Of a stretch of DNA of 64,000 nt, positions 44,490-48,676 are shown in pieces. A model generated the notes under the pieces. That model was not told the DNA's origin and did no database searches. It saw only the letters and a list, made by a program, of their open reading frames with translations. Both the position numbers and the translations under genes were made by a program. The stretch spans positions 248,001 through 312,000 of the forward strand of contig NZ_MUNV01000011.1 of the NCBI RefSeq assembly GCF_002001125.1, in the 5' to 3' direction. Source of the stretch: Rhodanobacter sp. B04. Its GTDB lineage: Bacteria; Pseudomonadota; Gammaproteobacteria; Xanthomonadales; Rhodanobacteraceae. Position 1 is the first letter of the stretch; every line of letters begins with the position of its first letter.

Positions 44490-46198
44490 GCGCGCTGCAA
44501 GTGCGCCGACGCGAGAGCAAGGGCGCGCCCAGCGGTTGGCCAGCCTCGGTGCATCCGGTATTGCAGCAGGTCTACGCTGCCCGCGGTGTATTGGATCCCA
44601 GTCTGGCCGAGCACCGGCTGGCCCGGCTGCTGTCGCCACAGACGCTGGGTGGCATGGCGCAGGCTGTCGAGCTGCTGGTCGAGGCCATCCGCAGCGACTG
44701 GATCATCCTGATCGCGGGCGATTACGACTGCGACGGTGCCACCGGCACCGCGGTGGCCGTGCGTGGGCTGCGAATGCTTGGTGCGCAGCGGGTCAGCTAT
44801 GCCATCCCCAATCGTTTCGTCCACGGCTATGGGCTGAGCCCTGCGCTGGTCGAATCACTCCAGCCGACACCGCAACTGATCGTCACCGTCGACAACGGCG
44901 TGGCCAGCGTGGCCGGCGTGGCGGCGGCCAAGGCACGCGGTATCCGCGTCATCGTCACCGACCATCACCTGCCCGGCGAGCAGTTGCCGGCCTGCGATGC
45001 GATGGTCAACCCCAATCTTGCCGGTGATGCTTTTCCCAGCAAGGCGTTGGCCGGGGTCGGCGTGATGTTCTATCTGCTGCTGGCTTTGCGCGCGCGGTTG
45101 CATGAGCAGGGTGCCTTCGGTGACACCAAACCCGACCTGTCGGTGCTGCTCGACCTGGTCGCACTGGGTACAGTGGCCGATCTGGTGGCACTGGATTTCA
45201 ACAACCGCGTGCTGGTCGAGGCCGGCCTGCAGCGCATCCGCAGCGGTCGCGCCTGTGCCGGCATCAGCGCGCTGGTCGAGTCCGGCAGGCGCAGTGTGGC
45301 GACGCTGTGCTCCAGCGACCTCGGCTTCGTCGTCGGCCCGCGCCTCAATGCGGCGGGACGGCTGGAGGACATGCGCCTGGGCGTCGAATGCCTGCTCACC
45401 GACGACGTGGCGCAGGCACGCCGCCATGCCGGGCAACTCAACGCGATCAATCTGGAACGCCGCGACCTGCAGGCGTCGATGGTGGCCGAGGCCGAGCAGA
45501 TGGTGGCGGGCATGACCGACATCGACGCGATCGGCGTGGCGCTGTACGAGCCGAGCTGGCATGCCGGCGTGGTGGGCCTGGTCGCCTCCAAGCTGAAGGA
45601 TCGCCTGCATCGCCCGGTCATCGCGTTCGCGCCGGCCAGCGAGGACGACACCGGCAGCCTGCGCGGTTCGGCGCGTTCGATCGCCGGGTTCCACATCCGC
45701 GACGCGCTGGCCGCGATCGACGCACGCCAGCCGGGCCTGATCGAACGCTTTGGCGGTCATGCGATGGCGGCCGGGTTGAGTCTCAGGACCTGCGACTACC
45801 CGCGCTTCGCCGAAGCGTTCGACGCGATCGCACGCGAACTGATCGACGCCGAGCGGCTGCAGGCGGTGCTCTATACCGACGGCGAACTGCCAGCGGGGGC
45901 GCTCTCGCTGGAGTTGGCCCGGCAACTGCGCGAGGCTGGCCCGTGGGGTCAGGCTTTCCCCGAACCGCTGTTCGAGAACCTGTTCGCATGCAACAGCTGG
46001 AAAGTGATGGGCGAAAGGCACCTGCGCCTGCAGCTGCGCGACCCGCGCGACGGCAGCGTGCATGATGCGGTGATGTTCAACGCCTATCACGGTCAGCCAC
46101 CGCCGTCGCTGCTGCGTGCGGTCTACGAACTGGGCATCAACGACTGGCAGGGGCGGGAAACGCCACGTCTGCTGTTGCGGCACATCGAGTCGACCTGA
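44486..46198 (+). CDS. recJ: Single-stranded-DNA-specific exonuclease RecJ
   Basis: A 570-residue DHH-family 5'-3' exonuclease in recombination and mismatch repair. Motifs: AGDYDCDGATGTAVAVRGL, VTVDNGVASVAG, VTDHHLPGEQLPACDAMVNP, DLVALGTVADLVAL, and DHHA1-type RFGGHAMAAGLSL. The TTG at 44486 is chosen because it overlaps the upstream stop (TTGA) with GGAG 7 bases before, giving the usual RecJ length; the frame extends further upstream without similarity. Confidence 0.95.
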   Translation: MSALQVRRRESKGAPSGWPASVHPVLQQVYAARGVLDPSLAEHRLARLLSPQTLGGMAQAVELLVEAIRSDWIILIAGDYDCDGATGTAVAVRGLRMLGAQRVSYAIPNRFVHGYGLSPALVESLQPTPQLIVTVDNGVASVAGVAAAKARGIRVIVTDHHLPGEQLPACDAMVNPNLAGDAFPSKALAGVGVMFYLLLALRARLHEQGAFGDTKPDLSVLLDLVALGTVADLVALDFNNRVLVEAGLQRIRSGRACAGISALVESGRRSVATLCSSDLGFVVGPRLNAAGRLEDMRLGVECLLTDDVAQARRHAGQLNAINLERRDLQASMVAEAEQMVAGMTDIDAIGVALYEPSWHAGVVGLVASKLKDRLHRPVIAFAPASEDDTGSLRGSARSIAGFHIRDALAAIDARQPGLIERFGGHAMAAGLSLRTCDYPRFAEAFDAIARELIDAERLQAVLYTDGELPAGALSLELARQLREAGPWGQAFPEPLFENLFACNSWKVMGERHLRLQLRDPRDGSVHDAVMFNAYHGQPPPSLLRAVYELGINDWQGRETPRLLLRHIEST

Positions 46199-46291
46199 TC
46201 TTGGTGGACTGATTCCTCCGCCTGATCCGCTCGCACGTTTTTCACGCGATGCGGATCATGCTGATAGCCAACCCATCAACGGAGAACGCTG

Positions 46292-46663
46292 GTGATCGCA
46301 CAGATCGAGGGACTGCCGCCAGGCACGCTGGGTTTCCGCGCTCACGGCCAGGTCACGGCGGCCGACTACGAGAACATCATCGTGCCGGATGTCGAGGCGG
46401 CATTCGCGCTCAACCGCAAGTTGCGCGTGTTGTATGTCACCGCCGAGGATTTCACCGGGTTCGATCCCGGCGCGATGTGGGACGACGTCAAGATGGGCAT
46501 GCGCCACTTCAGTGGCTGGGATCGTGTGGCGCTGGTGAGCGACGTGCCCTGGCTGCGCACGACCACGGCGGCGATGAGCTTCATGCTCCCCGCCGAGATC
46601 CGCCTGTTCCACCTGAACCAGCTGGACGAGGCGACACGCTGGATCACCGAACCGTCGGTTTGA
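46292..46663 (+). CDS. SpoIIAA-like (STAS-fold) protein
   Basis: A 123-residue protein of the SpoIIAA-like family. It has LGFRAHGQVTAADYENIIVPDVEAAF, LRVLYVTAEDFTGFDPGAMWDDVKMGMRHFSGWDRVALVSDVPWLRT and FHLNQLDEATRWI, the typical core. These are small cytosolic STAS-like proteins, common beside stress and metabolic genes, with no assigned reaction. The start is GTG 46292 with GGAG a few bases upstream. It lies just before the asnB leader region but ends before it. Confidence 0.85.
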   Translation: MIAQIEGLPPGTLGFRAHGQVTAADYENIIVPDVEAAFALNRKLRVLYVTAEDFTGFDPGAMWDDVKMGMRHFSGWDRVALVSDVPWLRTTTAAMSFMLPAEIRLFHLNQLDEATRWITEPSV

Positions 46664-46718
46664 AGGAACACCCATCCAGTCACTTGCGGATGGACGTCCA
46701 ATCTGTTCTAGTCGAACC

Positions 46719-46841
46719 ATGCATCCGATGATTGCCAACCCCCAGACCGCTACCGCGCCTTCCGCGCGGAGCCTTGTGCCGGCTGGCAACAATAACAATC
46801 GCGCGAACAATAACGCCAACTGTTGGCGGGCTCTCGCGTAG
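46719..46841 (+). CDS. Asn-rich leader peptide of asnB
   Basis: A 40-codon ORF (ATG 46719 to TAG 46839) in which codons 24-34 read NNNNRANNNAN: eight Asn in eleven, then CWRALA. A shorter 21-codon version from GTG 46776, with GGAG 4 bases before it, is equally or more likely to be the real start; both carry the Asn run. Random coding in a GC-rich genome would rarely give AAC/AAT runs. The peptide stops 26 bases before an intrinsic terminator and 152 bases before asnB. It is inferred to be a translation sensor of Asn-tRNA charging, not a functional protein. Confidence 0.8.
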   Translation: MHPMIANPQTATAPSARSLVPAGNNNNRANNNANCWRALA

Positions 46842-46905
46842 CTTCAGGTTTGCAGAAACATACGCGAAGAAGGCCCGCCCAGTGCGGGCCTTCTGCTTTT
46901 TGTTT
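46814..46905 (+). promoter_or_regulatory. Transcription attenuator of asnB (three competing hairpins)
   Basis: Segment 1:2 pairs CGCCAA (46814-46819) with TTGGCG (46823-46828), overlapping the last Asn codons. Antiterminator 2:3 pairs GGCGGGC (46825-46831) with GCCCGCC (46873-46879) and TCGCGTA (46834-46840) with TACGCGA (46861-46867), 14 base pairs in all. Terminator 3:4 is an 11-bp perfect stem, AGAAGGCCCGC (46868-46878) with GCGGGCCTTCT (46884-46894), followed by GCTTTTTGTTT. Each structure excludes the next. A ribosome stalled on Asn codons would free segment 2 to form the antiterminator. One reaching the stop codon would cover segment 2 and allow termination. Confidence 0.8.
46868..46905 (+). 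terminator. Intrinsic terminator of the asnB leader
   Basis: Eleven-base perfect stem, 5-base loop CCAGT, and a T-rich tail. It stands 89 bases before the asnB start, in the same direction, with no gene end nearby that needs it. It is therefore a regulatory rather than an end-of-operon terminator. Confidence 0.85.
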
Positions 46906-46993
46906 CATGCGAATTCATTCGCAAAATGCCAAACCGGCCATCCAGGACCGGACTTTTCAACCAAAGAAATATCCAACCCAAAGGACAGCAAGC

Positions 46994-48676
46994 ATGTGTG
47001 CGATCTTCGGAATGTTCGACCTGCAGCCGGGCGACGACCTGGCCACGTTGCGCCGGCAGGCGCTGGAAATGTCGCAGCGCCAGCGCCATCGCGGGCCGGA
47101 CTGGAGCGGGGTGTACGTCGACGCCGGGGTGATCCTGGTGCACGAGCGGCTGGCCATCGTCGATCCAGCCAGTGGTGCCCAGCCGCTGCGTTCGCGTGAC
47201 GGTGCGCTGGCCCTGGCGGTGAACGGCGAGATCTACAACCACCAGGAGCTGCGTGCGCACAGCAGCTATGACTTCACCACCGGCTCGGATTGCGAGGTGA
47301 TCAATGCCTTGTATCGCGAGCAGGGCACAGCCGGATCCCTCACCGATCTGGTCGGCAAGCTCAACGGCATCTTCGCGTTTGCCTTGTGGGACGGCGAAGC
47401 TAGGCGTCACGTGATCGCTCGCGATCCGATCGGGGTCTGCCCGTTGTACTGGGGGCACGATGTTGAGGGCCGCTTGTGCGTAGCTTCGGAGATGAAGGCG
47501 CTGGTGGGCGTATGCGCTGACGTAGCGCCGTTTCCGCCAGGCCATGTGTACGACAGTGTCGAGGGCGAATTGCGCCGCTACTATCACAAGCCGTGGCGCG
47601 ACTACGCGCATACGCAAGGCCACGAGGTCGCGGCGCCGGCCTTGCGTCGGGCCTTCGAGCAGGCCGTGCATCGTCAGTTGATGACGGACGTCCCTTACGG
47701 CGTGCTGCTTTCAGGCGGGCTGGATTCCTCGCTGGTGGCTGCCTGCGCCGCGCAGTTCGCCCGGCATCGCATCGAGGAAGGCGATCGCACCGAGGCCTGG
47801 TGGCCGCGCCTGCACTCGTTCGCGATCGGGCTGGACGGCTCGCCGGACCTGGCGGCCGCGCAGATCGCCGCCGATGCGCTGGGCACGGTGCATCACGGCT
47901 TCGTCTACACGTTCTGGGAAGGCATGGACGCGCTGCCGGAGGTGATCCGGCATATCGAGACCTACGACGTCACCACCATCCGCGCCGCCACGCCGATGTA
48001 CCTGCTGGCGCGTCGGATCAAGGCTATGGGCGTGAAGATGGTGCTGTCCGGCGAAGGCTCGGACGAGTTGTTCGGCGGCTACCTGTACTTCCACAAGGCA
48101 CCGTCCGCCGAGGCGTTCCACGAGGAGACCGTGCGCAAGCTCGATGCGTTGCACAGCTACGACTGCCTGCGCGCGAACAAGGCGATGATGGCCTGGGGCG
48201 TGGAAGCGCGCGTGCCGTTCCTAGACCTGGAATTCATCGACGTGGCGATGGGGTTGGATGCGAGGCACAAGATGGCAGGGCAAGGACGGATCGAGAAAGC
48301 GGTGCTGCGCGAGGCGTTCACGGGCGCACTGCCGGACTCGATCCTGTGGCGGCAAAAGGAGCAGTTCAGCGACGGCGTCGGCTACAGCTGGATCGACGGC
48401 CTGAAGGCGCATGCCGAACAGGCGGTCAGCGATCGCGAATTCGCCGCGGCAGCGGCACGCTACCCGTTCAACACGCCAGCGACCAAGGAGGCGTATTTCT
48501 ACAGGCGCATCTTCGAACAGCATTTTCCCGGCGAAGCCTGTGCGGCCACGGTGCCGGGAGGCAAGTCGATCGCCTGTTCCTCGCCGGCGGCGCTGGCATG
48601 GGATCCCGCCTTCGCGAACACGGCCGATCCGTCCGGTCGTGCGGTGCGCGGCGTGCACAGCCACGCACTGGCTTGA
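46994..48676 (+). CDS. asnB: Glutamine-hydrolysing asparagine synthetase AsnB
   Basis: A 560-residue enzyme making Asn from Asp, Gln and ATP. After processing, Cys2 (MCAIFGMF) is the glutaminase nucleophile. The N-terminal class II amidotransferase shows RHRGPDWSG and ALAVNGEIYNHQELR. The synthetase domain has the pyrophosphate loop LLSGGLDSSLVAA and VLSGEGSDELFGGYLYFHKAP. It is full length. It lies behind the Asn-rich leader and attenuator, so expression should rise when charged Asn-tRNA falls. ATG 46994 is fixed by the need for Cys2. Confidence 0.96.
   Translation: MCAIFGMFDLQPGDDLATLRRQALEMSQRQRHRGPDWSGVYVDAGVILVHERLAIVDPASGAQPLRSRDGALALAVNGEIYNHQELRAHSSYDFTTGSDCEVINALYREQGTAGSLTDLVGKLNGIFAFALWDGEARRHVIARDPIGVCPLYWGHDVEGRLCVASEMKALVGVCADVAPFPPGHVYDSVEGELRRYYHKPWRDYAHTQGHEVAAPALRRAFEQAVHRQLMTDVPYGVLLSGGLDSSLVAACAAQFARHRIEEGDRTEAWWPRLHSFAIGLDGSPDLAAAQIAADALGTVHHGFVYTFWEGMDALPEVIRHIETYDVTTIRAATPMYLLARRIKAMGVKMVLSGEGSDELFGGYLYFHKAPSAEAFHEETVRKLDALHSYDCLRANKAMMAWGVEARVPFLDLEFIDVAMGLDARHKMAGQGRIEKAVLREAFTGALPDSILWRQKEQFSDGVGYSWIDGLKAHAEQAVSDREFAAAAARYPFNTPATKEAYFYRRIFEQHFPGEACAATVPGGKSIACSSPAALAWDPAFANTADPSGRAVRGVHSHALA

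Follow-up and report, generated by a model that had tools for sequence, protein, structure and literature searches.

Leader-peptide attenuators are known in Proteobacteria for trp, his, thr, leu, ilv, and phe, and the T-box leaders of Firmicute asparagine genes respond to the charging of tRNA-Asn. A term search through the main text of a survey of attenuators that discusses leader-peptide systems gave no hit for "asparagine," "asnB," or "asn" (PMC2965389), and the passages of PMC5009743 and PMC5864092 that mention asparagine do so in other contexts. We found no leader-peptide attenuator for asparagine in the open-access literature searched, as represented by titles and the opening lines of abstracts, a scope that most subscription papers fall outside. 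The original prediction for the locus described here, that an asparagine attenuator in front of asnB may be undescribed, therefore stands within the open-access literature searched. We regard the locus as very probably a conserved, Asn-specific member of the leader-peptide attenuators, provisionally without earlier description.

The window is a stretch of 64,000 nucleotides from Rhodanobacter sp. B04, in which asnB is preceded by the elements listed in Table 1. We conclude that these elements very probably act on asnB as a ribosome-mediated transcription attenuator whose signal is charged tRNA-Asn. Conservation among relatives, a competing duplex, and the gene content all support the trp/his-type layout, with Asn codons before an asparagine synthetase, that had been proposed for this site, and from them we infer regulation. 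The AsnB product carries asparagine synthase and glutamine amidotransferase domains (PF00733, PF13537, and PF13522) and scores over the cut-off of TIGR01536; a single gene of this genome exceeds the AsnB cut-off. Both the short ORF with eight Asn in eleven codons and the 11-bp intrinsic terminator with its T tail were recovered as described. The antiterminator, given earlier as 14 bp, is also present, with 13 pairs by our count and a few more in the computed duplex. The fold of the 185-nt leader, proposed at the outset as a check, is more stable than those of shuffled sequences (z = -2.64). Terminator-like sites number four on both strands of 46400-47100, two of them being this terminator, compared with 0.6 +/- 0.7 in shuffles. 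The gene 5' of the leader (46292-46663, same strand) is SpoIIAA-like, and a scan of the + strand between the two found no terminator-like site, so that read-through into the leader is possible. Checked for repeats in its own genome, the segment 46903-46972 matches only itself and is single copy.

Table 1. Features of the asnB leader region, in window positions
Feature	Position	Strand	Remark
-35 element TTGCGG of the predicted leader promoter	46684..46689	+	conserved across leaders
-10 element TCTAGT of the predicted leader promoter	46707..46712	+	6 nt 5' of the leader ATG
asn leader ORF, 40 codons (MHPMIANPQTATAPSARSLVPAGNNNNRANNNANCWRALA, then stop)	46719..46841	+	no Pfam match
Control codons NNNNRANNNAN, eight Asn in eleven	46788..46820	+	relatives keep the Asn columns as AAC/AAT
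Small 1:2 hairpin spanning the final Asn codons, 6 bp, CGCCAA/TTGGCG	46814-46819/46823-46828	+	
Strand 2, antiterminator 5' side	46825..46840	+	extends into the leader stop codon
Strand 3, antiterminator 3' side	46861..46879	+	46868-46878 doubles as terminator 5' arm
Antiterminator pairing	46825-46831/46873-46879 plus 46835-46840/46861-46866		13 pairs counted
Intrinsic terminator with T-rich tail	46868..46901	+	11-bp stem at 46868-46894
Shine-Dalgarno-like AAAGGA of asnB	46980..46985	+	
asnB, glutamine-hydrolysing asparagine synthetase, 560 aa	46994..48676	+	ATG at 46994

To place the arrangement among relatives, we considered 80 named asnB loci, from which three (L025, L027, and L063) were left out because their sequence is cut off just 5' of asnB. 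The arrangement was found in 76 of the remaining 77 loci with upstream DNA: in 75, the leader and terminator lie within the stretch that was read, and in L050 the leader lies further upstream, at ~440 nt and behind a repeat array. L073, which has no leader, has only 250 nt of upstream DNA. The named loci come from Rhodanobacter, Dyella, Frateuria, Dokdonella, Fulvimonas, and Pinirhizobacter, the others being metagenome-assembled genomes or carrying broader or odd labels. Among 151 genomes surveyed across the order, whose families are numbered f1, f2, and so on (f2 is presumably Xanthomonadaceae), 90 have a close AsnB, and upstream DNA was read for the 89 other than the window. Besides the window, the leader was found in 19/20 genomes of f1, 22/23 of f2, and 3/3 of f3 (45/47 with the window). 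In L152 (f1) and L141 (f2), AsnB is at 64% identity and the 500 nt read hold no leader; these asnB genes are possibly acquired or displaced copies. Judged by Asn density, 42 of 43 genomes of five other families (f5, f6, f8, f10, and f11) have nothing comparable, with at most 3 Asn per 12 codons; L148 has only 325 nt of upstream DNA. Outside the three main families, L139 (f8) is a weaker but real candidate: NTINTTNN occurs in a short ORF, a strong terminator separates this ORF from asnB, and the duplex reaches -15.8 kcal/mol (z = -3.09). Its promoter-like TTGACA/GATAGT sits further from the in-frame ATG, and it may not be leaderless.

A covariance model built on the f1 leaders, run against 200 genomes of the order, found a single full-length match scoring at least 50 bits in at least 31 genomes. 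Of the 31 listed full-length matches, 22 precede an asnB placed in the survey (placement was checked for these 22). Among the matches listed, many weaker ones cover the terminator only, and full-length ones of ~28-35 bits occur elsewhere. The f1 terminator core thus resembles other terminators of these genomes, as these terminator-only matches indicate, and its conservation alone is weak evidence. AsnB orthologs at E up to 1e-120 number five among 232 genomes of the class, own order included, one of them (G274) from outside the order. Separately, repeats were seen in the gap between the attenuator terminator and asnB. Units of ~50 bp, recognized by eye (GGCCATGGATGGCCGGTATGCCGGAAACGCAGGAGCAGTTTCCGGC and variants), occur in L050 (as an array), L002, L031, L035, L039, L044, and L052. 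A second type, approximately GCGCGnnnCCATnCGCGC followed by a CCGGCCATCCATGGCC-like palindrome, occurs in one to three copies in L008, L009, L010, L013, and L040.

All 110 distinct leaders, which remain of 120 once 10 exact duplicates are set aside, combine an Asn-rich ORF, a terminator-like hairpin, and a competing duplex; conservation of the Asn run in related genomes, which was to be looked for, extends over three families. The best 12-codon window of the present leader holds 8 Asn, and the 43 orthologs from the five other families gave 1-4. In control stretches (420 nt from the same loci, three frames, best 12-codon window; n = 1,340), this count was four or fewer in 1,339 and six in one, and the exact 33-nt Asn run has one copy in the genome. 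Over the final 20 codons of each of 108 non-redundant leaders, we counted 663 Asn codons in total (351 AAC and 312 AAT) versus 5 AAG and 1 AAA, and the two shifted frames of these leaders have 5 and 13 AAN codons. AAC and AAT switch freely within the Asn columns of relatives. Elsewhere, apart from a C-terminal tail that is bound into the RNA structure and tracks strand 2, the peptide differs between genera in both sequence and length (20-45 codons). Fourteen of the 108 leaders have an Asn density of only 3-4 per 12 codons, which is inside the chance range and, because leaders were chosen by their best Asn window, is biased upward in such weak cases; these 14 are assigned by their shared anatomy. 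AAT, otherwise a minor codon, accounts for 47% of leader Asn codons (312/663) and 15% of those in asnB genes (69/473; 67 loci), a roughly 3-fold difference in which related sequences are treated as independent.

We then compared the paired elements of the leaders. Alignment A1 holds 80 of the 88 non-redundant f1 leaders; the divergent L059, L070, L072, L075, L076, L078, L079, and L093 were dropped by hand, which makes f1 look more uniform. Alignment A2 holds all 17 f2 leaders, and the 3 f3 leaders are outside both. For the terminator, 98.6% of cells in f1 are paired and 82 changed on both sides (26.4 in shuffles), and in f2 the corresponding changes are 15 (4.8 in shuffles). Terminator tails have 3-10 T per 11 nt, with low values (3-4 T) in 18 of the 110 leaders. 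For the antiterminator, 90.0% of f1 cells are paired, compared with 29-60% when the strands are slid, and 90.3% are paired in f2. Its covariation within families is slight: two pairs changed on both sides in f1, a number equalled in 266/500 shuffles, and two in f2, equalled in 44/500. The stronger argument lies in the co-change of strands 2, 3, and 4 between families: they read GGCGGGC/GCCCGCC/GCGGGCC in the window and in a large part of f1, and GATGCGGG/CCCGCATC/GATGCGGG in f2, where strand 2 matches this sequence exactly in 8/17 leaders. L124 has a base change in strand 3 and a compensating one in strand 2 (GC to AU), and its terminator retains a wobble pair. The duplex between leader and terminator averages -24.5 kcal/mol over the 110 leaders and has z < -2 against shuffled leader segments in 89; the other 21 miss this mark, the weakest at 0.02. 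Controls for duplex, hairpin, and promoter alike were mononucleotide shuffles.

Three stems had been expected to show compensatory changes and to exclude one another in turn. Compensation is evident in the terminators of f1 and f2, and slight in the antiterminator within families; the 1:2 hairpin gains no statistical support from the relatives. Exclusion holds between the upper half of the antiterminator and the terminator; in the fold of the window, the lower helix (46861-46866) coexists with the terminator, so it is the upper helix that makes the switch. The 1:2 hairpin itself exists in the window and is less well supported as a conserved third element: across the 108 leaders its stability is ordinary relative to shuffles (median z = -0.49) and its register differs among relatives. 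It is the weakest part of the arrangement.

In 64 of 108 leaders, the distance from the start of strand 2 to the end of the stop codon is 16 nt; the last Asn codon begins a median of 11 nt 5' of strand 2, and across all 108 a single Asn codon lies at or past the start of strand 2. As in an attenuator, the 5' strand of the antiterminator is located 3' of the control codons. Given the footprint of a ribosome, one stalled on the Asn codons would leave strand 2 exposed, whereas one at the stop codon would cover it.

The original prediction depends on transcription that does not start downstream of 46841, and a conserved promoter is predicted just 5' of the leader ORF instead. Its -35 element begins with TTGC in 103 and TTGT in 5 of the 108 non-redundant leaders, the spacer is 17 nt in 95, and in 100 the leader start codon follows the -10 element after 6 or 7 nt. 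A promoter score of 10 or more was reached by 85/108 leaders and 0/1,752 control ATGs, with a score that was set after the data had been viewed, favors spacers of 17 nt, and served as well to pick among in-frame start codons. The predicted transcription start would fall at or beside the A of the leader ATG. In the 18 nt before the start, pairing with the anti-Shine-Dalgarno sequence amounts to -5.3 kcal/mol for asnB versus -0.1 for the leader ATG, and pairing of -4.5 kcal/mol or better is found for 20/108 leaders versus 100/108 asnB starts. Given a predicted promoter that, in 100 of 108, ends 6-7 nt from the start codon and, in most cases, no Shine-Dalgarno sequence, translation probably begins on a leaderless mRNA.

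In 10/17 f2 and 3/88 f1 leaders, the -35 element is overlapped by a palindrome, G[C/T]AACnGTT[G/A]C, located ~43 nt 5' of the leader start, which suggests that some species may have a further regulatory protein. This observation would favor a different sensor, be it an Asn-binding RNA, a regulatory protein, or a T-box, that drives the terminator while the Asn run is incidental. A T-box covariance model had no match in 46000-47500 (Rfam 15, E up to 10), and conservation of Asn at the level of codons is unexplained without translation; we consider such a sensor very unlikely. The best Rfam match was Trp_leader (RF00513), which we rejected as sub-threshold because it scored 23.7 bits where the gathering cut-off is 41.

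The predicted promoter is also relevant to another explanation, in which the product of the Asn-rich ORF is a small peptide with a function of its own, in trans or otherwise, and the hairpin merely insulates asnB as an ordinary terminator. Expressed from that promoter, the ORF would yield a peptide of 40 aa, and peTrpL is a leader peptide reported to act in trans (PMC7298713). However, the variation of the peptide between genera outside the Asn codons and tail argues against a function of its own, a pure insulator has no need for a competing duplex that overlaps the end of the ORF, and in L011 only 28 nt separate the terminator from asnB, leaving scant space for a second promoter. We regard this explanation as very improbable. 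Finally, short AACAAT repeats are low in complexity, but a chance AAY-rich stretch beside an unrelated terminator has a negligible likelihood given an Asn density all but absent in controls and three families that conserve Asn with AAC/AAT switching instead of a fixed repeat.

We therefore return to attenuation by a ribosome that reads the Asn codons. RNA polymerase would start at or beside the leader AUG, with a ribosome following it. When asparagine is ample, the ribosome would pass the Asn codons to reach the UAG at 46839 and cover strand 2; strand 3 could then pair with strand 4, and transcription would end near 46901. A shortage of Asn-tRNA would instead hold the ribosome on the Asn codons and leave strand 2 free to pair with strand 3, which would block the terminator and allow asnB to be transcribed.

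The signal in this scheme depends on how asparagine and Asn-tRNA are made. AsnRS is over the cut-off in 31/31 genomes of f1, the one family covered. With positive controls included, GatB was found in 0/12 genomes and AsnA in 0/11, all but one of the 12 genomes coming from f1-f3. Transamidation as a source of Asn-tRNA would undermine the mechanism, and the lack of GatB in these 12 genomes argues against it. With AsnRS present and neither GatB nor AsnA found, charged tRNA-Asn should report free asparagine, whether supplied by this asnB or by uptake.

Queuosine modifies the tRNA wobble base and has a role in decoding, and tgt was found in 11/11 genomes. An extended version, which we hold to be unlikely, is a leaderless Asn attenuator whose AAU-enriched control codons also read the quality of tRNA-Asn decoding (e.g., queuosine), with a terminated RNA that serves as a small translatable mRNA, perhaps acting in trans.

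If attenuation at asnB is confirmed, asparagine would join the amino acids sensed by leader-peptide attenuation, with conservation in at least three families and a simple logic in which the window genome has one detected synthetase and the genomes covered have AsnRS but neither GatB nor AsnA. The leader would be a natural reporter of Asn-tRNA charging, and its more than 100 natural variants would serve to follow the co-evolution of control codons, leaderless initiation, and terminator competition.

Compared with the trp, his, thr, leu, ilv, and phe attenuators, the locus shares end-product codons in a short ORF, an antiterminator opposed to a terminator, a position 5' of a biosynthetic gene, and the geometry of stall site and stop codon. 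It differs in having Asn codons before asnB, in being found in one order where sought, in a 1:2 hairpin that is not clearly conserved, and in a leader mRNA that probably lacks a 5' UTR. T-box leaders likewise link the charging of tRNA-Asn to asparagine genes and differ in that their RNA binds the tRNA directly. The rli60 leader of ilv-leu in Listeria shares ribosome-mediated attenuation, a short leader peptide, a terminator, and an antiterminator, whereas its control codons are for branched-chain amino acids, its host is a Firmicute, and its leader has a ribosome binding site (PMC5864092). With regard to initiation, the relevant comparison is trpL of Sinorhizobium meliloti, whose RNA is stated to begin with the ATG of the leader ORF, a start that is only predicted here, and which differs in its Trp codons and in preceding trpE(G) (PMC7298713).
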